From contig JACWEQ010000003.1 of NCBI GenBank assembly GCA_014653365.1, forward strand, positions 58,501 to 122,500: a DNA stretch of 64,000 bases, in the 5' to 3' direction. The translations under genes and the position numbers were made by a program. Positions 8,815 through 22,391 of this stretch are shown here, piece after piece. The DNA comes from Pelagibacterales bacterium SAG-MED49. GTDB taxonomy: Bacteria; Pseudomonadota; Alphaproteobacteria; Pelagibacterales; Pelagibacteraceae. The notes under the pieces were generated by a model. That model was not told the DNA's origin, ran no database searches, and saw nothing but the letters and a program-made list of their open reading frames with translations. Each line of letters opens with the position of its first letter. Position 1 is the stretch's first letter.

Positions 8815-10493
8815 TAAGTTGTTGTTGTCTTGATGGTAGTTCGCTTCATTATGAATACTTGTTGAGCCATAGTTAAAATATTATTAACTGTCCAGTAGAT
8901 TACTAGTCCTGCAGGGAATGGAGCTAAAATTATTGTAAGGAAAAGTGGGAAGAACATAAATATTTTTGCTTGCATTGGATCAGTTGGAGCTGGATTTAAT
9001 TTTTGTTGAATAAACATTGAAACTCCCATTGCAATAGGCCATGCACCAATCATTAAAAAAGAAGGTACGTCATATGGCAATAGACCAAACAAGTTAAACA
9101 ATGAAGTTGGGTCTCTTTCTGATAAATCTTGAATCCAACCATAAAAAGGCATTTGTCTCATTTCAATGGTTACAAATAAAACTTTATATAAAGCAAAGAA
9201 TACGGGTATCTGAACCAATATAGGTAAGCAACCTGACATTGGATTAACTTTCTCTTTTTTATAAAGAGCCATCATTTCTTGCTGTAGTTTCATTTTATCT
9301 TCTTTATGAAGATCTTTAAGTCTTACCATTTCAGGCTGTAGAGCTTTCATTTTTGCCATGCTCCTAAATGAAAAGTTTGCAAGAGGAAAAAATGCTAGTC
9401 GAATACAAATTGTAATTGCAATGATCGCCAGTCCATAATTTCCAAGCAATTTAAAGAAGTAATCTATCCCATAAAATAAAGGTTTAGTGATAAAATATAA
9501 AAAACCCCAATCAATCGCCAAATCAAATTTATCTATATTTAAAGACTCAGCATATCCGTCAATTACCTCAACTCTTTTTGCTGCAACAATTATTTGCATT
9601 TCATCTTCTATGGTAGAGTTTTCTTTTAGTGCGAGTGGCTCCGTTCCTACAAAGTTTGCTCGAAATTTATCTTTGTAGTCAAATGTAGTTTTAAATTCCT
9701 TACCTTTTGGAGGTATTAATGAAGTGATCCAAAATTTATCAGAAATTCCAAGCCATCCTTTTTGTGAGGTTCTTGAAAATTTTTCTTCTTGGATGTCATC
9801 ATAATCTTTTTCGATTAACTCGTCGTCTAATGTTGCCAGAAGCCCTTCGTGAAGGATGTAAAAATTTGATATATCAGGAATTTGTTTTCTAATTATTTGT
9901 CCATATGAATAAAAATCATATTCATTATTTGTTGAATTGACTACTCTTTGTTTGATTGTAAACAGAAATTTATCATCTAAAGCTATTTCTTTTTCAAAAG
10001 TAATTCCTTGGTCATTGGTCCATGACAATTTAACTGGAGATTGATCCGTTAATCTGCTGTTCCCTGATACAGTCCAAACAGAGTTTGAATTTGGAATATC
10101 AATATTCTTATCAGTTGTTATAAATCCACTCTCTATTAGGTACCCATCTTTAGAATTTCTTGGTGATAAAAGTTTTACTTTCTCATCACTTTCTAAGGCA
10201 ATATTATATTCTTTAAACGTTAAGTCATCGATTGCAGCACCTTTTAGAGATATAGAGCCAACTATACTCTGATTTTCAAATTGAATTCTTTTACTTTGTC
10301 CTAATGCTTCTTCTCTTGAAATTTCAGTTATATTTTCTTTTTGATCTAAGCTTGGCGCATCAGTGCTTTGTTCAGTTTTATTTTTTTCTGCTAAATTTTC
10401 TTTAGTTATTGGTGGAGGAGCAAAATATAGACTATATAGTATTATAACAGCTGCTGATAAAGAGATGGCTGCAATGACATTTCGAGTATCCAT
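8814..10493 (-). CDS. yidC: Membrane protein insertase YidC
   Basis: N-terminal TM, periplasmic domain, C-terminal Oxa1 domain (NYGLAIIAITICIRL, MSGCLPILVQIPVFFALYKVL). Confidence 0.97.
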   Translation of the reverse strand: MDTRNVIAAISLSAAVIILYSLYFAPPPITKENLAEKNKTEQSTDAPSLDQKENITEISREEALGQSKRIQFENQSIVGSISLKGAAIDDLTFKEYNIALESDEKVKLLSPRNSKDGYLIESGFITTDKNIDIPNSNSVWTVSGNSRLTDQSPVKLSWTNDQGITFEKEIALDDKFLFTIKQRVVNSTNNEYDFYSYGQIIRKQIPDISNFYILHEGLLATLDDELIEKDYDDIQEEKFSRTSQKGWLGISDKFWITSLIPPKGKEFKTTFDYKDKFRANFVGTEPLALKENSTIEDEMQIIVAAKRVEVIDGYAESLNIDKFDLAIDWGFLYFITKPLFYGIDYFFKLLGNYGLAIIAITICIRLAFFPLANFSFRSMAKMKALQPEMVRLKDLHKEDKMKLQQEMMALYKKEKVNPMSGCLPILVQIPVFFALYKVLFVTIEMRQMPFYGWIQDLSERDPTSLFNLFGLLPYDVPSFLMIGAWPIAMGVSMFIQQKLNPAPTDPMQAKIFMFFPLFLTIILAPFPAGLVIYWTVNNILTMAQQVFIMKRTTIKTTTT

Positions 10494-10744
10494 TATTTTT
10501 TAGCTTTTATCTCTTTTTTAACTGGGTCAAATCCATCGCCACCTCCTAAAAATTTAATTGGATGGCACGATAAAATTCTTTTTAAGCTAACATAAGTCCC
10601 TTTGATTAAACCAAATTCTTTTAAAGCATCAATACTGTATTCTGAGCATGTAGGTAAATATCTGCAAGATTGTCCAAGCAAAGGACTGATAACAAATTTA
10701 TATCCTTTAATTAATTTAATTAAAATACTTGTAAAAATGTTCAT
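10493..10744 (-). CDS. yidD: Membrane protein insertion efficiency factor YidD
   Basis: GYKFVISPLLGQSCRYLPTCSEYSIDA. Confidence 0.95.
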   Translation of the reverse strand: MNIFTSILIKLIKGYKFVISPLLGQSCRYLPTCSEYSIDALKEFGLIKGTYVSLKRILSCHPIKFLGGGDGFDPVKKEIKAKK

Positions 10745-11085
10745 TATTTAATTTTTTCTAAATCCTGAAATAAGGTTTCTTTTATATTTGTGTATTCATT
10801 GTTTAGCATAGTTGACTTGGCAATAACAAGATATGAATAGTTAAATTTTAATGATACTTTTTTAACCGCATCATTAACAATATTTCTTAACCTTCTTTTA
10901 ATTTTATTTCTTTTAACCGCATTTCCAATTTTTTTCTTAGTTACAAAGCTTATATTCAATTTGTTAATATCTTTATTTGCTAAGCTTCCAAAAAAAATTG
11001 TAACATATTTGTTAGAGATTTTTTTTTGTTTTAATAGATTTTTGAATTCCTCGTTTTTTGAAAGAGCAAGTATTTTGCTTTTCAT
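10744..11085 (-). CDS. rnpA: Ribonuclease P protein component
   Basis: VTKKKIGNAVKRNKIKRRLRN; between rpmH and yidD. Confidence 0.93.
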   Translation of the reverse strand: MKSKILALSKNEEFKNLLKQKKISNKYVTIFFGSLANKDINKLNISFVTKKKIGNAVKRNKIKRRLRNIVNDAVKKVSLKFNYSYLVIAKSTMLNNEYTNIKETLFQDLEKIK

Positions 11086-11089
11086 TTAT

Positions 11090-11230
11090 CTAAACAGAGA
11101 CAGTTAACGATTTTCTTCCTCTTGCTCTTCTTCTAGCCAAAAGTTTTTGTCCACCCTTAGTTTTCATTTTCGATCTAAAGCCATGTTTTCTAGCTCTTTT
11201 AACGTTAGATGGTTGGTATGTTCGTTTCAT
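11090..11230 (-). CDS. rpmH: 50S ribosomal protein L34 (46 aa; not in the supplied ORF track)
   Basis: Reverse-complement translation [46 protein letters not shown]. Confidence 0.97.
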
Positions 11231-11322
11231 AAATGTGGTTAATTTTTAATTAAATTTCGCCCTTTATAGTAATTAAATATATAAATAGCAAATAGAAGAT
11301 TTTATAAATAGCATTAGATTTA

Positions 11323-12045
11323 ATGGAAAAAGCTAAAAAAATTAAAATATTTATAGGGTTATTTTATCTTGTAGCTATTTGCTTGTTTTTATATTTTTTC
11401 TTTTCAAAATTTAGTCTTCAAGATCTTACCTCTTACGATTTCATCAGAGAAAATAGGTCTTACTTTTTTGAACTTAAAAATTCTAATTTATTTTTAATAT
11501 CAATAATTTTTTTATTATTAACTATTTTATGGGTATTTCCATTTTTAGGATTTGGATCTCCTGTGGCTTTACTAGGTGGATTTATTTTTGGAAAATGGAT
11601 AGGTACTTTTATTGTTGTCTTAGGATTAAGCATTGGTGCAACTTTTTTATATGTGTTTGGTAATTACTTTTTAAAAGATTTAATTAGAGAAAAATTTTTA
11701 AATAGATTTAAATCTCTCGAGATTAAATTTAAAAAATCAGAATTTACTTTTTTATTAATCTATCGTTTTATAGGAGGAATACCCTGGCAGCTGAGTTGTC
11801 TTATACCTACTCTTTTTAATGTAAGAGCAAAAAACTTTTTCTTTGCATCATTAATTGGGATTATCCCTCAGATTTTTTTAGCAGTTTCTATTGGTAGTGG
11901 ATTAGAAAAAATAATTGATCAAAATTCAGAAATTCCTAGCATAACAGATATAATTTTTTCTGCAGATATATATGTTCCAATTTTAGCTTTTTTTGGATTG
12001 ATTTTAATAACAATTATTTTAAGAAAATTATTCTACAAAAATTAA
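11323..12045 (+). CDS. TVP38/TMEM64 (VTT/DedA-like) membrane protein
   Basis: Multiple TM segments, FGSPVALLGGFIFGKWIGT, RFIGGIPWQLSCLIPTLFNV. Confidence 0.8.
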   Translation: MEKAKKIKIFIGLFYLVAICLFLYFFFSKFSLQDLTSYDFIRENRSYFFELKNSNLFLISIIFLLLTILWVFPFLGFGSPVALLGGFIFGKWIGTFIVVLGLSIGATFLYVFGNYFLKDLIREKFLNRFKSLEIKFKKSEFTFLLIYRFIGGIPWQLSCLIPTLFNVRAKNFFFASLIGIIPQIFLAVSIGSGLEKIIDQNSEIPSITDIIFSADIYVPILAFFGLILITIILRKLFYKN

Positions 12046-12049
12046 TTTT

Positions 12050-12123
12050 TGGTGCTCCCACCCTGTACTGACCAGGAAATTAGTCATTACCAATGACTTG
12101 ATATACCATTTATCTATAGGAGC
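12050..12123 (-). tRNA. tRNA-Thr (anticodon GGT), atypical T-loop
   Basis: Minus strand folds as a 74-nt cloverleaf: GCTCCTA TA GATA-AATGGTA-TATC A AGTCA-TTGGTAA-TGACT AATT TCCTG-GTCAGTA-CAGGG TGGGAGC A CCA. Seven-bp acceptor stem, encoded CCA, G1-C72/C2-G71, anticodon GGT. Confidence 0.85.
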
Positions 12124-12222
12124 TAATAAACAAATTATATTTTATTGATAATAAAGCATTTTTTTCAAAATATTGCCTTAATTTTTTAGGTAATATGATT
12201 TATATCTACATCAGGAAATTTT

Positions 12223-12423
12223 ATGGGAATTCATTACGATTATAAATCTACTAAAGGTAATAAGCTTATGGAAAAGCAAGCTAAGAGAGAAAAGAAGCTT
12301 GCTGAAAAAAAAGCTAAGCGCATAGCAAAAGAAGGGCCAATAGAGGAAGAGGTAAAACCAAAAACTTTAGACACCTCTAAGCCAATTACTTTAGACTTTC
12401 TTACAAATCCAGATAAAGAATGA
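12223..12423 (+). CDS. Small conserved hypothetical, Lys-rich
   Basis: 66-aa ORF, stop overlaps the next ORF's start (ATGA). Confidence 0.6.
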   Translation: MGIHYDYKSTKGNKLMEKQAKREKKLAEKKAKRIAKEGPIEEEVKPKTLDTSKPITLDFLTNPDKE

Positions 12424-12521
12424 ATTCAAAAGATAAAAATGAGCGTCTAAGCTTAGCGCTGAGAAAAAATTTAAAGAAAAGAAAACTTTTTCAAAAAAAA
12501 ACAAAAAAGAAAAATAAATAA
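12420..12521 (+). CDS. 33-aa basic protein ([16 protein letters not shown]-), similar to short alphaproteobacterial murA-neighbourhood ORFs
   Basis: ATG 12420, stop 12519..12521 overlaps the dcd ATG (TAATG); [33 protein letters not shown]. Confidence 0.5.
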
Positions 12522-13075
12522 TGTCAGTTCTTTCAGATAAGTGGATTAGAAAAATGTCAAAAGAACAGGGTATGATTACTCCATTTGAGGAAAAACAAGT
12601 TAGAGGCAACAGTATTTCATATGGGCTATCTTCTTTTGGTTACGATGCTAGAGTATCTGAAGAATTTAAAATTTTTACCAATGTAAACTCTGAAATAGTT
12701 GATCCTAAAAATTTTAAACCAACAAATTTTGTAACTAAAAATGTTTTAGAGTGTATTATTCCACCTAATTCTTTTGTATTAGCTAGAACAGTTGAAAAGT
12801 TTAAAATACCAGATGATGTATTGGTTATTTGTCTGGGTAAATCCACTTATGCAAGATGTGGAATTATAGTTAATGTAACACCTTTAGAGCCCGGATGGGA
12901 AGGTTACGTAACATTAGAATTTTCAAACACAACACCATTGCCTGCAAAAATTTATGCAAATGAAGGTGTTGCACAATTTATTTTTTTAAAGGGAAATGAA
13001 AAACCAGAAGTGACTTATGCTGATAGAAATGGAAAATACATGGGTCAAACTGGGGTAACTTTACCCAAAGTTTAA
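12521..13075 (+). CDS. dcd: dCTP deaminase
   Basis: [46 protein letters not shown]. Confidence 0.96.
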
Positions 13076-13077
13076 TC

Positions 13078-14331
13078 ATGCAAAAACTGGAAGTCTTTGG
13101 AGCTAATAAGCTCAAAGGGCAAATAAAAATATCAGGTTCAAAAAATGCTTCTTTGCCTATCTTGGCAGCAACCTTGCTATCAAGTAAAAAAATTTTTTTA
13201 AATAATTTACCAAATGTTAAAGATATTGAGACAATGATTAATTTACTGCAATCATTAGGATCAAAAATAAAATCTAATAAGCAAAAATTAATCATTGATA
13301 ATTCTAAACAATATAAAAAAATTGCCTCATACAGTTTGGTAAAAACAATGAGGGCAGGAATTTTGGTTCTTGGCCCTTTACTTGCAAAGTTTGGTAGTGC
13401 AAAAGTTTCACTACCAGGAGGATGTGCAATTGGCACAAGGCCAGTAGATATTCATTTAAAAGCACTATCAAAACTTGGCGTTAAATATAAAATTATTGAA
13501 GGCTATGTACATGCTACAGCCCCTAAAGGTTTAATTGGTTCTAAAATTCGATTTTCAAAAATTTCAGTTGGAGCTACAGAAAATTTAATTATTGCAGCAA
13601 GTCTAGCAAAAGGTACTACTATTTTAAGTAATTGTGCAATTGAACCTGAAATAAAAGATTTGGTTAATTTTTTAATTAAAGCTGGGTGTAATATAAAGTG
13701 GATTGCAAAACGTTCACTAAAAATTATAGGAGTAAATAAAATTAATGAAACAACCTATCCAATTATGTTTGATCGAATTGAGGCCGGTACTTATTTGGTC
13801 GCAGCAGCTGTTACCGAGGGGAATTTAAAAATTAAAAATGTTATACCAAGTATTATTCAAACTGAAATCAACACTCTTAAAAAAATAGGTGCTAAAATTA
13901 GTACAAAAAAAGATGAAATTCATATTATTGGAAATAAAAAGATCAATGGTATGAATATAAAAACGGCACCTTACCCAGGTTTTCCAACAGATCTACAAGC
14001 ACAGATCATGGTATTGTTGTGTAAAGCAAATAAAAAATCTTTAATAACAGAAGATATTTTTGAAAATAGATTTATGCACGTTGCAGAGTTAAATCGAATG
14101 GGTGCTCAAATCTCAACCAATGGTAATAAGGCTATAATTGAAGGAAATATAAAATTTGCAGCAGCAGAACTAATGGCAACTGACCTAAGAGCTTCGGTTT
14201 CATTAATTCTTGCGGCATTAACTGCAAAAGGTAAATCAGTTATAAATAGAATTTATCATCTAGATCGTGGATATGAGAGTATAGAGAAAAAATTAAAAAA
14301 AGTTGGTGCAAAAATTAGAAGAGTAAATTAA
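13078..14331 (+). CDS. murA: UDP-N-acetylglucosamine 1-carboxyvinyltransferase
   Basis: GANKLKGQIKISGSKNASLPILAATLL, LPGGCAIGTRPVDIHL, YPGFPTDLQAQIM. Confidence 0.97.
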   Translation: MQKLEVFGANKLKGQIKISGSKNASLPILAATLLSSKKIFLNNLPNVKDIETMINLLQSLGSKIKSNKQKLIIDNSKQYKKIASYSLVKTMRAGILVLGPLLAKFGSAKVSLPGGCAIGTRPVDIHLKALSKLGVKYKIIEGYVHATAPKGLIGSKIRFSKISVGATENLIIAASLAKGTTILSNCAIEPEIKDLVNFLIKAGCNIKWIAKRSLKIIGVNKINETTYPIMFDRIEAGTYLVAAAVTEGNLKIKNVIPSIIQTEINTLKKIGAKISTKKDEIHIIGNKKINGMNIKTAPYPGFPTDLQAQIMVLLCKANKKSLITEDIFENRFMHVAELNRMGAQISTNGNKAIIEGNIKFAAAELMATDLRASVSLILAALTAKGKSVINRIYHLDRGYESIEKKLKKVGAKIRRVN

Positions 14332-14732
14332 TGGATAAGAAGTATTTAGCACAAATAATTGCAACAGATAATGAGGGTTTGCAAATGATTTCAGCATGCA
14401 CTGCTGGTGCAAAAGTTAAAGTAGCAGATATCAAATACCTTGCGTCCAATAAAGTTTTTTTAATATCAATTGAACGAACTAAAATTGAAACAGACCAAGA
14501 AGATAAAAAAATTAATAGTGTCTGCAGGTTTGATTTTGTTGACAAAGTAAAGTCTAAAAATATTGATCAAAAAAACGATGATTTAGCTTTAGATTTAATT
14601 GCCATAGATTATTTAAAAAATAAAGATGATTATGAAATTAACTTAATTTTTGATAATAATGCCTACATTGCTTTGACTACCGAAACAATTGAAGTAAGAC
14701 TAGAAGATCAAAATGAAATTAAAGAGCAATGA
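14331..14732 (+). CDS. DUF2948 family protein
   Basis: Sequence character and position between murA and hisD, a conserved alphaproteobacterial arrangement. Confidence 0.75.
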   Translation: MDKKYLAQIIATDNEGLQMISACTAGAKVKVADIKYLASNKVFLISIERTKIETDQEDKKINSVCRFDFVDKVKSKNIDQKNDDLALDLIAIDYLKNKDDYEINLIFDNNAYIALTTETIEVRLEDQNEIKEQ

Positions 14733-16012
14733 AGATATTAAATAGTAATAACAGAAATTTTAATAAAGCTTTAGATAATTTGCTCTTACAAAGAAAAAGA
14801 AAGGTTCAATCTAATTCAGTTTCTGTTTCAAGTATTATTAAAGACGTTAAGAAAAATGGAGACAAAGCTATTTTAAAATATGAAAAAAAATTCAATCAAA
14901 ACAAAACTATCGTACCCACCTCTAATCAAATTTCAAAATCAATTAAGTCTCTTGATAAAAAAGTTAAAAATGCAATTGATCTTGCATATACAAGAATACA
15001 TAAATTTCATTCTCTTCAAAAATTTAAGAATATTTCATATACAGATAAACTAAAGAACAGATTAGAATATAAATATGTTCCAATAGAATCGGTTGCAATA
15101 TATGTGCCTGGTTCTTCTGCATCATACCCATCAAGTGTTTTAATGAATGCAATTCCCGCAATTGTTGCAGGAGTTAAAAGAATTGTAATGATTAATCCTG
15201 GGTTTAAAGGAAAACAAAATCCAGCAGTTTTATATGCTGCTCGTAAATGTAAAATTAAAGAAATTTATTCAATTGGAGGTCCATCCGCTATTGCAGCAGT
15301 AGCTTATGGCACTAAAAAAATTAATAAAGTTAATAAAATTGTAGGTCCTGGCAACGCTTATGTTGCAGCAGCTAAAAAAGAAGTTTTTGGTGATGTTGGA
15401 ATTGAAGGAATGACTGCAGGACCTTCTGAAGTAACCATAGTATGTGATAAATTTTCAAATCCAGAATGGGTTGCAAGCGACTTAATTGGTCAAGCAGAGC
15501 ATGATAATCTTGCTCAGTGCATTTTAATTTCTAAAGATAAATCATTAATAGAAAAAGTTAAAATTGAAATATTTAAACAATTAAAAAATATTTCAAGACA
15601 ATCGGTTGCTAAAAAAAGTTTAATGAGTAATGGAATTTTAATGCATATCGGCTCTGATAAAAGAATAATTGAGATGGTTAATAAAATTGCACCAGAGCAT
15701 TTAGAGCTTAATGTTAAAAATTATAAATCATTTATTCCAAAAATTAAAAATTCAGGATCTATTTGCTTAGGAAAATATGCTGTTATGGCAATGACTGATT
15801 ATAATGTTGGTTCAAACCATATACTACCTACTAACGGTTCAGCAAAATATTCAAGTGGAGTAAGCGTTAATGAATTCTATAAACGGATTTCCTACATAAA
15901 CTTATCTAAAAAGGGTATTGAAAGTCTTGGACCATCCGTTATAACACTTGCAAATTACGAAGGGTTGGCAGGACATGCACAATCTGTAAAAATAAGATTG
16001 AAAGGAAAATAA
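14729..16012 (+). CDS. hisD: Histidinol dehydrogenase
   Basis: [50 protein letters not shown]. Confidence 0.96.
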
Positions 16013-16013
16013 T

Positions 16014-16232
16014 TTGGCTAAAGAAGAAAATATTTTAGAGCTTAAAGGAAAAGTTTCTGACCTACTTCCAAATGCTATGTTCCGTGTTTTGTTAGAGAAC
16101 GGACACACAGTAACAGCTCATGCTGCAGGAAAACTTCGTAAAAACAGAATTAGAGTACTTCAAGGAGATACAGTCACAGTTTCTGTATCAACATACGATC
16201 TAACAAAAGGTAGAATAATCTTTAGGGGTTAG
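16014..16232 (+). CDS. infA: Translation initiation factor IF-1 (TTG start)
   Basis: [54 protein letters not shown]. Confidence 0.95.
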
Positions 16233-16237
16233 ATTTT

Positions 16238-16312
16238 GCCTCGGTAGCTCAGGAGTAGAGCAGAGCCCTGAAAAGGCTTGTGTCGGAGGTGCGAATCCTT
16301 CCCGAGGCACCA
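16238..16312 (+). tRNA. tRNA-Phe (anticodon GAA)
   Basis: GCCTCGG TA GCTC-AGGAGTA-GAGC A GAGCC-CTGAAAA-GGCTT GTGTC GGAGG-TGCGAAT-CCTTC CCGAGGC A CCA. Confidence 0.93.
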
Positions 16313-16394
16313 CCATCTACTTTTCATCTTGAAATTATTAAAAAATCAAATTAGCTTTATGGAATATTAAACAACATAAGGACTGAGAAATAAG

Positions 16395-16607
16395 ATGAGT
16401 ACACTAACTGGTAAAATTAAATGGTATAATGGTAAAAAAGGATTTGGCTTCATTGAAAGAGATGACAAAGAAAAAGATGCTTTTGTACATGCTTCAGCAG
16501 TAAAAACAGCTGGTATGAGATATCTAAATGAAGGCGATAAACTTGAGTTTTCATTAGAAGACGGCCCCAAAGGTCCTTCTGCAGTTAATTTAAAAAAAAT
16601 AGACTAA
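16395..16607 (+). CDS. Cold-shock domain protein
   Basis: TGKIKWYNGKKGFGFIERDD, DAFVHASAV. Confidence 0.95.
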   Translation: MSTLTGKIKWYNGKKGFGFIERDDKEKDAFVHASAVKTAGMRYLNEGDKLEFSLEDGPKGPSAVNLKKID

Positions 16608-16627
16608 TTTTTTTATAAAAATTTTTT

Positions 16628-16669
16628 AAAGGGCGTTTTATCTATTAAAATAGATATACGTCCTTTTTT
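16628..16669 (+). terminator. Rho-independent terminator of the cold-shock gene
   Basis: AAAGGGCGT-TT-TATCTATT-AA-AATAGATA-T-ACGTCCTTT-TTTA: two stacked inverted repeats followed by T-tract. Confidence 0.8.
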
Positions 16670-16840
16670 ATTTAACCCTTGAATAATCATTATTTTTGTC
16701 TAAAAGACTGCCCATGATTATAAATATTACATTTCGAGAGACTTCAAGAAGCACTCATAGAATTTGTTTCCATAGCCTGTAGGCTATTTATTTATAATAT
16801 AATTTTTAATCCACATAAAAATAATATAAAAACAAGGAAT

Positions 16841-16915
16841 GCCTGGGTGGTGTAACGGTTAGCACGAAAGTTTGTGGAACTTTAAGTTTGAGTTCGATTC
16901 TCAGCCCGGGTACCA
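16841..16915 (+). tRNA. tRNA-His (anticodon GTG)
   Basis: GCCTGGG...AAAGT-TTGTGGA-ACTTT...TGAG-TTCGATT-CTCA...CCCGGGT A CCA; immediately upstream of hisS. Confidence 0.94.
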
Positions 16916-16920
16916 AAAAA

Positions 16921-18315
16921 ATGAATAAAGAAAATAAATTAGTTCCTGGATTACCTTCAGGATTCGAAGATCGTTGGGATAAAAAACTTCTTCTCAAAAA
17001 AAAGCTATTAAATGCTATTGAGAATAATTTTATCAAATTTGGAGCAGAGGCTCTTGAAACTCCCTCGTTCGAAATTAGTGAAAATATAGGATCTTTTCTT
17101 GCAGAAGATGAGGCTAATCCTATGTCTGATGTATTCTCATTTCAAGATGGAGATAAAAGTATTACACTTCGATACGATCTTTCAAGCCCACTAGCAAGAT
17201 TTGTTGCTCAAAATAATCAAGAACTTCCATCTATTTTTAAGCGTTATGCTATTCAAAATGTTTTCAGAAATGAAAAAGCTGGGAATGGAAGATACAGAGA
17301 GTTTATGCAAGCAGATTTCGATATTATTGGAAATGTTGATCCTGCTCAGGCTAATGCTGAACTTTGTAATTTAATATCAAGTACATTGTCAGATTGTGGA
17401 TTAAACAAAGACCAATTTACAATTAATGTTAGTAATAGAAAAATAGTCCAAGGTTTAATTGATGAATTAAAAATTTCTGAAGAAAAACAAATAAAAGTTA
17501 TAAGAGCAATAGATAAACTTGATAAACCTGGATTTGGTTTAAAAGGTGTTGAGGATTTACTTAAAAAAGAAAGAAAAGATCAAAGTGGTGCAATTACTAA
17601 AGGAGCCGATCTATCAAACGAACAAGCTCAACAAATTTTAAATTTCTTAAAAATAAAAGATTTAAATGAATTAAAACAAACTCTAAAAAATCCACTTTCT
17701 CAAGAAGGAATAAGTGAGTTAGAAAATGTATTTGAAGTACTTGGATATGGATCTAATTTAAATCAAGTTAAGACAAATTTTACAATTGTAAGAGGATTAG
17801 CTTACTACTCAGATTTTATTGTAGAGACTAACTTAAATTTTAAAGTCACGAACAATAAAAGAAAAGATGTAGATATTGGAAGCATATGTTCAGGTGGAGC
17901 TTATGCAAAATTAATATCAAGATTTAGAGGAGTTGACATTCCTGGAACTGGAATAAGTTTTGGTGTTGATAGATTATTGTTCGCTCTGATGCAGTTAGAT
18001 CAAATTAAAGTAGAAGATAAAAAGCCAGTTTTAGTCTGTGTGATGGATCAAAAATATTTAAAAAATTATTATGAGATGGTCGATTTATTAAGAGACAATA
18101 ATATTAATGCTGAAGTGTTTCTAAACACTAAAAAAAACCTTGGTAAACAACTTGATTTAGCAAATAAACGTCAGTTATCAGTTGCGATAATTTGTGGGGA
18201 AAACGAATTTAACGATAACACTATTACTATTAAAAATCTTAAAGGTGTTAAGGGTGAAAATAATCAAACAATTCCAAAAGCAGATTTAATTAATGAAGTC
18301 AAAAAACTTATCTGA
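16921..18315 (+). CDS. hisS: Histidyl-tRNA synthetase; start corrected to the ATG at 16921, 5 nt after tRNA-His
   Basis: LRYDLSSPLARFVA, FKRYAIQNVFRNEKAGNGRYREFMQADFDIIG, SGGAYAKLISRFRG; the ORF-track start at 16888 lies inside the tRNA. Confidence 0.93.
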   Translation: MNKENKLVPGLPSGFEDRWDKKLLLKKKLLNAIENNFIKFGAEALETPSFEISENIGSFLAEDEANPMSDVFSFQDGDKSITLRYDLSSPLARFVAQNNQELPSIFKRYAIQNVFRNEKAGNGRYREFMQADFDIIGNVDPAQANAELCNLISSTLSDCGLNKDQFTINVSNRKIVQGLIDELKISEEKQIKVIRAIDKLDKPGFGLKGVEDLLKKERKDQSGAITKGADLSNEQAQQILNFLKIKDLNELKQTLKNPLSQEGISELENVFEVLGYGSNLNQVKTNFTIVRGLAYYSDFIVETNLNFKVTNNKRKDVDIGSICSGGAYAKLISRFRGVDIPGTGISFGVDRLLFALMQLDQIKVEDKKPVLVCVMDQKYLKNYYEMVDLLRDNNINAEVFLNTKKNLGKQLDLANKRQLSVAIICGENEFNDNTITIKNLKGVKGENNQTIPKADLINEVKKLI

Positions 18316-20151: not shown

Positions 20152-20356
20152 AAGTTAAATTTATCTCATTATAAGTAGAGATAAAACTAAAAATGGAATA
20201 ACAAAATAAATATACAAGCAATCATTGATAAATTTTGTAGGAAGTTGACTTTTATTTGGGGCGTTAGAGGTACACACTTCTTCACACTACCTCACACTAG
20301 TTACAGGGATAATTAAAAATAAATCACCTAAAGACTCATCATTTCAAATAACAAAT

Positions 20357-20379
20357 TAGTCCCCAAACTAGAACATTTT
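20357..20379 (+). repeat. Direct repeat A, left copy
   Basis: TAGTCCCCAAACTAGAACATTTT, identical to 22230..22252. Confidence 0.95.
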
Positions 20380-20410
20380 AAGATAAAACAAATCAATGAA
20401 TTTATAAAAT

Positions 20411-22183
20411 TTATATATCTATTTTTGGTAATCTCGACATAATTACTTTGTCTAATTTTTCGAGAACTTTTGAACTAATTGTAAGATCTCTGATAGGAGC
20501 ATTCTTATATTGATCTTTTTCAACTTCTAAATGATAAAGATTTATTATTTTATCTACAATTTTTTCAAATAGTGGCTTAGTTAATTTTTCAAGATATTCT
20601 TCATTATCAACTAGTTTTTTTACATTTATTTTACTTCCATTTTTTTCTAGCTCTTTCATTACTCTTCTATAAAAATGCAAAAAATGATATCTAAACCTTT
20701 TTAAAAATCTATTATCTTCATTAGACTCTGCTTCTTTTGAACATTTGTCTAAAATATCCTCATAAAATACAACTGGCAGTAAAAAAGAGGATATAAATTG
20801 ATTATCTGAGATTATATCCTCTATAGAATTATTAATACCAAAACTTTTTTTGTAGAGACCATTTTCTCCAACTTTCCATAAGTCTTTTGATTTTGAAATC
20901 GGTGTACAAGGTTCTTCCAAGAAGGAATATCTTATTTTAGCCAAATCCTCTAATTTTAGATTATATGTACCTTTTCTTAAAAGTTTATCTCCTCTTTTTC
21001 TAATATAATTTATTTGACCAAGAATTTTAAAATCAACTGTCTTAAATTTATTTAATAAATCTAGTTGAATTTTGTCGTTTGACCTAAAATCAGATAATGT
21101 AATTTTATTTTGTGTATTGTTGTATCTTATTATTTTTTCATTAATACCTTTTTCAGTACCCACTGCTTGGGTTTCTGTAATTCTCAATAAAATTTCAAGT
21201 TTTGGATTGTCATCAATTGCCCTTAAAGCCCCAACAGTTTGAGCGCCATTAATAATTTGAAATTTTTTTGCTTTAATTCGGTTTCCTTTTATTTCTAAAT
21301 CCGTACAAACAGCAGATATTCCATTATTATAATAAAAAAAATTCTCCGGTTCGTCCTCTGCAGTTTTAACAATATCTTTGTTAATTCCTTTTTCTCCCAA
21401 GTAAGTTCTAATATTATAGGCAAATAAACTATCCTTATACTGTCTCAATAAGTCTTCAACAGCATTAGCTTTAAGTGCTGTAACAACAGTAAGTTTTGGA
21501 TCTCTCTTAATAAACATTTGATCTTTTGGAATTGAAAATTCAACTTCATCAGGAATTTTTGCTTCTACACTTTGAGCTTGTGATACTAAATCTTTAAATT
21601 CTGAAAAATCATATAATATACAATCAATTGGTAAATCTTGTTTTTCATATCTTTTATTAGCTTTATCAACTGCAGTTTTTACTCTTTCAGAAGCTGTGCC
21701 TGTAGAAATAAAAATATATTTAAATTGATAGGACTCTTCTTCTATAAGTTTTTTGTAATCTCTTAAATATTCAACTGCTATTTTGTTTCCAAACTTTTTT
21801 ACCCATTTTCTATCGATTAAATTTTCATGATTGCCAAAGAAATTAGTTACCTTTGCCTCATCTACATTTGCACTTTTGCTTTTTTTTGATGTGCCAGTAA
21901 ATTCGCTTTGAATTAGATAAATAACTTTATCATCATTATCTTCTAGGTATATATCTATATTTAAGTCTTTGCTTTCTCCTAGTAATGAATCATGCGGATC
22001 TGTTTCGATATACCTATTATTTTCCTTGTATAGCCTTGCTATCCATATATTAAATGCTCTACTTCTCTCTTTTTGATTATCAATATTTAATCTATTCTCA
22101 TTACAAATTTTTTGAACCTGTTCCCTTAAATATTCTTGAAACTCTTTAACTGAAAATCCTTGTGACATATTAAATTTAATCAA
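20411..22183 (-). CDS. AIPR-family protein (abortive phage infection-like), standalone
   Basis: LFAYNIRTYLGEKGINKDI...EPENFFYYNNGISAVCTDLEIKGNRIKAKKFQIINGAQTVGAL; N-terminal D-IDIYLEDNDDKVIYLIQSEF restriction-like segment. Confidence 0.88.
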   Translation of the reverse strand: MIKFNMSQGFSVKEFQEYLREQVQKICNENRLNIDNQKERSRAFNIWIARLYKENNRYIETDPHDSLLGESKDLNIDIYLEDNDDKVIYLIQSEFTGTSKKSKSANVDEAKVTNFFGNHENLIDRKWVKKFGNKIAVEYLRDYKKLIEEESYQFKYIFISTGTASERVKTAVDKANKRYEKQDLPIDCILYDFSEFKDLVSQAQSVEAKIPDEVEFSIPKDQMFIKRDPKLTVVTALKANAVEDLLRQYKDSLFAYNIRTYLGEKGINKDIVKTAEDEPENFFYYNNGISAVCTDLEIKGNRIKAKKFQIINGAQTVGALRAIDDNPKLEILLRITETQAVGTEKGINEKIIRYNNTQNKITLSDFRSNDKIQLDLLNKFKTVDFKILGQINYIRKRGDKLLRKGTYNLKLEDLAKIRYSFLEEPCTPISKSKDLWKVGENGLYKKSFGINNSIEDIISDNQFISSFLLPVVFYEDILDKCSKEAESNEDNRFLKRFRYHFLHFYRRVMKELEKNGSKINVKKLVDNEEYLEKLTKPLFEKIVDKIINLYHLEVEKDQYKNAPIRDLTISSKVLEKLDKVIMSRLPKIDI

Positions 22184-22229
22184 AGATTATGTCCTCTTTC
22201 AAGTCGTAAACCTAAAATTAGGTGTATAC

Positions 22230-22252
22230 TAGTCCCCAAACTAGAACATTTT
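22230..22252 (+). repeat. Direct repeat A, right copy
   Basis: TAGTCCCCAAACTAGAACATTTT, identical to 20357..20379. Confidence 0.95.
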
Positions 22253-22391
22253 GATATAAATCAAGGTTTTAAAGGTATGAACAAAGAAAACGCAAGTAAA
22301 CTGTGTAAAATGATACAGGAAGCCGGCGATTATTTGGGTGGCCAGAGGTTCACAGTGTAATTGTGAATAAATATTAGTTATAACTATCAAT

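Follow-up and report, generated by a model that had tools for sequence, protein, structure and literature searches.

A lone AIPR gene as the probable cargo of an integrase-less mobile cassette in SAR11

SAR11 genomes are streamlined, yet their defence and surface genes vary. In the 64-kb stretch of DNA analysed here (the window), a lone gene of the AIPR family lies between hisG and rmuC, bracketed by a direct repeat. Is this gene part of a mobile unit, and how would such a unit move? The original prediction described a candidate minimal defence cassette with att-like repeats at its ends. Indeed, the 23-bp repeat, TAGTCCCCAAACTAGAACATTTT, is perfect and occurs at 20357-20379 and 22230-22252, both on the + strand. 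As described, the spacing between copies is 1,873 bp, the AIPR gene, on the minus strand, is the sole long ORF between them, and the left copy lies 31 bp from its stop codon. The 46 bp given for the other side holds for a TTG start at 22183 but becomes 61 bp from the likelier ATG at 22168. Even when up to 3 mismatches are allowed, the window contains no further match (chance expectation, 0.00), and the 1.17-Mb assembly has none either, the 23-mer being confined there to the AIPR cassette; these searches rule out a chance repeat or a genome-wide one. A tRNA or RNA-family fragment was also considered and rejected, with no Rfam family above its cut-off and no tRNA nearby. The inverted repeat said to lie in each copy (CTAGT..ACTAG) is broken in the left one, which reads TTAGT. 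Each copy is better described as two ~12-bp direct sub-repeats, ACTAGTCCCCAA / ACTAGAACATT, a pattern common to sister cassettes, and similarity between the copies extends to 35 bp at 91%. Nor are the 23-mers the outer edge of the unit, since conserved sequence continues ~100 bp leftward and ~85 bp rightward of them.

The protein matches its family clearly (Pfam PF10592, E=5.7e-33, 115.3 bits against a gathering cut-off of 25; PADLOC AbiU, 2e-27), and its relatives come from Pelagibacteraceae records, on which, together with the original prediction, the naming of the host as SAR11 is based. AIPR proteins are often encoded in restriction-modification operons (PMC2292703), but this one stands alone. 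Family name and context suggest that it may act in phage defence. A structure model is mostly confident over the N-terminal ~190 residues. Compared with the PDB, it gave no significant match; the insignificant top matches include restriction-type nucleases, and we therefore do not claim nuclease activity from the model. Several homologs have an IQxK motif; the corresponding stretch (residues ~85-92) has IQSE here, and a homolog at locus L164 has IQTE, so that a catalytic lysine may be missing. We considered other SAR11 homologs as cassette cargo, but those at L164 and L165 are not located in one.

In the window, AIPR is framed by two matching arm pairs (the 23-bp copies), with a conserved left module outside the left pair and a 51-bp core outside the right one (Table 1). 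The cassette encodes AIPR only, and both a recombinase and a replication gene are absent. We set its boundaries by analogy with a sister cassette found at two loci, with empty sites, and with other junctions outside gene X, the small host gene described below. By the same analogy, the exact crossover would fall within the ATTTGG common to both junctions. Within the 64 kb, only one site matches the core better than the left half-site, TAGGAAGTTGACTTTTATTTGG, and 546 kb of control sequence contain no equally good match; the half-site may be a target that naturally resembles the core, or a core that has decayed. Our reading of the 27-aa ORF rests on comparison with full gene X at sister loci.

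Table 1. Features of the proposed cassette, in window coordinates
Feature	Position	Strand	Remarks
Whole integrated cassette (proposed), ~2.1 kb	about 20254..22337	+	ATTTGG at both junctions
Left junction half-site	20215..20258	+	Degenerate core match, 31/44; includes GGAAGTTGAC-TTTTATTTGG
Left module	20260..20347	+	GGCGTTAGAGG, then ~10-bp tandem CACACTA units; from sister left-module alignment
Conserved box AAAGACTCATCATTTCAA of left module	20330-20347	+	From sister left-module alignment
Left arm-site pair (23-bp copy 1) plus AAGATAAAACAA	20356..20391	+	
AIPR cargo	20411..22168	-	585 aa from ATG 22168; TTG 22183 would give 590 aa
Right arm-site pair (23-bp copy 2) plus GATATAAATCAA	22229..22264	+	
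Short ORF, 27 aa, MNKENASKLCKMIQEAGDYLGGQRFTV	22277..22360	+	Truncated gene X start created by element end
51-bp attachment core, right end, ending GGCGATTATTTG	22286..22336	+	From core search of genus genomes

The core is widespread: a search of 300 genus genomes found it in 131, and a reversed control pattern in none. Its sequence is that of codons 1-20 of gene X, whose full copies encode 75 aa and gave no Pfam or NCBIfam match. Core copies are often tandem, with 2-4 direct copies per locus (two or more in about 34 genomes by table count), and keep one orientation throughout the fetched loci. These arrays usually terminate at an intact gene X, commonly beside a glycine-amidinotransferase-like gene (annotation by eye). 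Codons 6-20 of gene X have 13% differing codons at the synonymous level versus 46% in codons 21-40, and low synonymous change is expected of a shared DNA site. We read the target as having possible dyad symmetry (CAGGAAGCTGGC..GACAACTTCCAG). Sister left modules consist of ~10-bp tandem units plus a box, AAAGACTCATCAATTTAA, usually located 136 (or 126) bp past the 44-bp core start and about 115 bp past it in the window. The genome of the window also has, on another contig, a tandem array of three further cassettes (L228; G000 contig C1, ~5.7-11 kb), with arms AGTGTCC, AGAAATG, and CGACAC and differing cargo; an intact gene X is not in view there.

We then compared the arms of 34 two-ended cassettes. 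They vary between cassettes and agree within one: scored over six variable bases, identity between ends is 0.912 versus 0.484 when shuffled (5000 shuffles; shuffled maximum, 0.608), a 91% that describes matching and is no strict probability because kinship of cassettes remains in the shuffle. Agreement is exact in 26 of them. One locus, L095 (7850-11402), has poorly matching arms and contains TypA-like and DEAD-box-helicase-like genes (by eye), unlike the usual cargo. A search of the 300 genomes with the window's own 23-mer gave two-copy matches in G024 and G220 and single matches elsewhere. As the original prediction had anticipated, the repeat (0-1 mismatch) brackets unrelated cargo in those two genomes, with no DNA similarity to the window cargo, and L115, L116, L122, and L214 contain single-copy empty units, in which there is one arm pair but no cargo.

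Such a pattern could also arise if the 23-bp repeats themselves were exchange points, for RecA or a site-specific enzyme, and the outer module were a fixed dock. This would account for the cargo-less units, for different cargo between the same arms in three genomes, and for left and right arms that match, and exchange of this kind could add to movement of whole units. We nevertheless regard it as an unlikely explanation. The first sub-repeat differs between ends in many cassettes, and a Z1-helicase cassette found twice (L053, 9135-11708; L096, 1127-3700) is 97.4% identical with different arms, CGACAC and CGAAAC, changed in concert across three sub-repeats. More directly, one cassette occurs both at gene X (G107) and after purK (G149), with 98.5% identity over 1,843 bp, and it moved whole. 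Its homology stops at ATTTGG junctions outside the repeats, so that the left module and core moved along with the cargo, an Lrp-like regulator (by eye) and a DHDPS-family enzyme.

The purK coding segment is only ~75% alike between the two genomes, and in many other genomes the alignment runs uninterrupted across an empty purK site; for this sister cassette, there are empty and occupied sites with precise ends. Other cassettes are shared between genomes at 97-99.6%, some pairs with a similar neighbourhood too. This last point recalls homologous recombination between conserved flanks, a model that one SAR11 study proposed for its largest variable region (PMC2217521). Islands would then be replaced with no dedicated recombinase, gene conversion would keep the arms alike, and long common flanks such as those of L041 and L098 (90.8% over 10 kb) fit well. 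We find this improbable, more so than exchange at the arms: one unit occupies unrelated loci and its homology ends at a short motif, secondary sites share only ATTTGG and a few nearby bases, and an integrase gene adjoins the same core and arms, as described below. No circular form of a cassette was seen; for the window cassette, the predicted circular junction is GGAAGCCGGCGATTATTTGG joined to GGCGTTAGAGGTACACAC.

At hisG-rmuC, close relatives have a short spacer without a cassette, in line with the proposed insertion. The exact empty site that we predict, GGAAGTTGACTTTTATTTGG joined to GTGGCCAGAGGTTCACAG, was not found in these relatives, whose spacer is shorter and different. The usual target is codon ~20 of gene X; hisG-rmuC is a secondary site and not special.

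The cassettes themselves encode no integrase: tblastn of the integrase and primase described next against all cassettes found neither. The window assembly, which is 89% complete, contains no match to that integrase, and its single PF00589 match is an Xer-like 325-aa gene. Using a degenerate 21-bp half-core pattern, we identified two circular IMG/VR contigs of ~9 kb, L230 and L231, with terminal direct repeats of 29 and 98 bp. In each, the core and the beginning of the left module are flanked by arm pairs and lie next to a tyrosine-integrase gene, whose 5' end contains one of the arm pairs. Cassette ends and these contigs have the core and arm layout in common. The L230 integrase matches a PHROG integrase (E=8e-23) and falls just under the Pfam cut-off; its structure model (pLDDT 32) was unusable. 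L230 also encodes one protein that combines AEP primase and DUF5906 domains and another that is RusA-like, with no capsid family match among ten proteins scanned. The two integrases are 66% identical, with a divergent N-terminus and a conserved C-terminal part, and the arms of the two contigs diverge as the N-termini do. The L231 arm pair is identical, for at least 22 bp, to the arms of a cassette on the chromosome of G208. The AAAGACTCATCA box of the later left module is absent from both contigs, and no satellite was found whose arms are of the window's type (TAGTCCCC/AGAACA). The contigs come from a viral collection in which we found no cassette modules; no viral contig matched the patterns for the left or right module or for the complete core, and a wider integrase search of them returned only L230 and L231 again. 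An Xer/dif-type reading of TTATGCG boxes was set aside after this integrase was discovered.

Lambda-type attachment sites are bipartite, in that arms go with the integrase and the core with the target. Related integrases occur in 6 of the 300 genus genomes. Two such integrase-bearing elements of ~9 kb, L241 (G120; 8972-17800) and L242 (G167; about 3.6-10.2 kb), abut tRNA-Leu-like sequence (tRNA identity by eye), the former flanked by a 30-bp direct repeat, GCCCTCGTGGTGAAATTGGTAGACACAAAG. The G167 element has the same arm style. These tRNA-Leu-like sites and the shared style of arms suggest that arm layout follows the integrase family and the core follows the target. Since the breaks at ATTTGG lie outside the 23-mers and the repeats in the ~9-kb elements are arm pairs on both sides of an attP core, the 23-mers probably do not serve as recombination points. 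The data support the original prediction of a minimal integrated cassette that has att-like ends but lacks an integrase, and the 23-bp repeats are probably integrase arm sites within a larger attachment module.

We propose that AIPR is the cargo of a non-autonomous integrative cassette of a SAR11 type, mobilised in trans by satellite integrases, and give this reading a probability of roughly 0.7. It draws on sequence evidence of several kinds: the architecture, the matched arms, empty and occupied sites, one cassette at two loci, and an integrase gene that adjoins this core and arm layout in viral contigs but is absent from the cassettes. Together, the two cassette ends would make up a bipartite attachment region of the lambda type, each supplying one half. 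Closed into a circle, the region would run from arm sites through ~45 bp to the core, which comprises codons 1-20 of gene X and ends in ATTTGG, and then through the left module to further arm sites. A tyrosine integrase of the L230/L231 family, supplied in trans by a ~9-kb satellite-type element, would act with its C-terminal part on the common core and with its N-terminal part on arms of matching sequence. It would insert the circle at gene X or at look-alikes such as hisG-rmuC, and units would stack as tandem arrays. Virus-like particles may provide transport.

Cassettes might instead be dead remnants, immobile satellites that decayed and lost their integrase and replication genes. In favour, G158 has an eroded satellite with an eroded integrase beside the gene X neighbourhood, and the left half-site in the window is degenerate. 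This is even less probable than flank recombination, given the 98.5% identity at two loci in different genomes, the 97-99.6% among other common cassettes, and a conserved left module that cassettes own and satellites lack. An integron-type array, with an integron integrase and attC-like folded sites, would explain tandem unidirectional arrays of one-to-few-gene units with variable cargo but is largely contradicted and very improbable, because arms match at both cassette ends, the left-module consensus has a fold energy of 0.0 (a hairpin apparent by eye was not borne out), the integrase found with these sites is on a satellite-like element, and an earlier SAR11 study reported no attC sites at the hypervariable regions it described (PMC2217521).

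The cargo of the cassettes varies. Besides AIPR, it comprises restriction systems (type IIG, and an EcoRI-type methylase paired with an HNH restriction enzyme), a helicase with a Z1 domain, ATPase operons that gave no match in PADLOC, numerous small secreted proteins, and enzymes of metabolism. Three loci (L043, 9241-12397; L097, 9069-13549 region; L099) have a common operon plan, with proteins of ~73-76 aa and ~186-220 aa and a large protein. Among the large proteins, a HATPase domain was found in L097 only, and PADLOC gave nothing beyond a weak MzaA match, also in L097; this operon is a candidate undescribed defence system. In many cassettes, among them L041, L047, L056, and L098, the right end carries a truncated secreted-protein gene start, ATGAAAAAACTTTTAGGGATCGTG, followed by TAGGATTTTATAGGAT beside the right arms, and its MKKLLGIV signal sequence also opens many cargo proteins.

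These data suggest a widespread hitchhiking system that swaps defence and surface genes. With defined ends, it offers a concrete, searchable mechanism for SAR11 variation, and it joins three layers: the virus fraction, an integrase-bearing satellite, and an integrase-less cassette. More tentatively, cassettes could be a dedicated family of satellites of satellites, units with their own conserved left module that exploit SAR11 satellite integrases and perhaps packaging, with ~20 arm types as a lock-and-key code for which satellite moves which cassette. If that doubtful idea is true, defence and surface genes spread as single-gene plug-ins within a bacterial group that ranks among the most abundant in the ocean. 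The system offers a natural set of arm/integrase pairs, and the cassettes are worth mining for unknown defence systems, as illustrated by EcoRI-like and type IIG restriction-modification, the Z1 helicase, and an unclassified ATPase operon.

How does this compare with known elements? CIMEs, integrase-less hitchers described for conjugative elements, accrete in tandem at one attachment site, and the cassettes show CIME-like tandem accretion at a single attachment site. Phage satellites (PICIs, PICMIs, and virion-encapsidated integrative mobile elements) are the kind to which L230 and L231 belong, being ~9 kb and circular, with an integrase, a primase, and no capsid match; PICMIs are small marine satellites carrying defence genes (PMC10803314). 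By satellite gene content, an integrase plus replication genes, L230 and L231 qualify and the window cassette does not: it is ~2 kb, lacks both, and has the attachment region alone in common. CALIN arrays and MITEs (PMC11389934) are likewise non-autonomous, kept only by their recombination ends, and thought to be moved in trans, but the cassette ends are a bipartite tyrosine-integrase region with diversified arms, not attC sites or transposon inverted repeats. Tycheposons, as the cassette system, are marine, cargo-carrying, and based on a tyrosine recombinase; they measure 4-200 kb, border tRNA genes, and carry the recombinase (PMC10872708), and the window cassette has none of these size, border, and recombinase traits. 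We found no prior description of such a cassette system in open-licence PMC papers. Its parts are known in kind, namely satellite integrases, non-autonomous hitchers, and tandem accretion; their combination in SAR11, a common core with varied, matching arms around single-system cargo, appears to be new.
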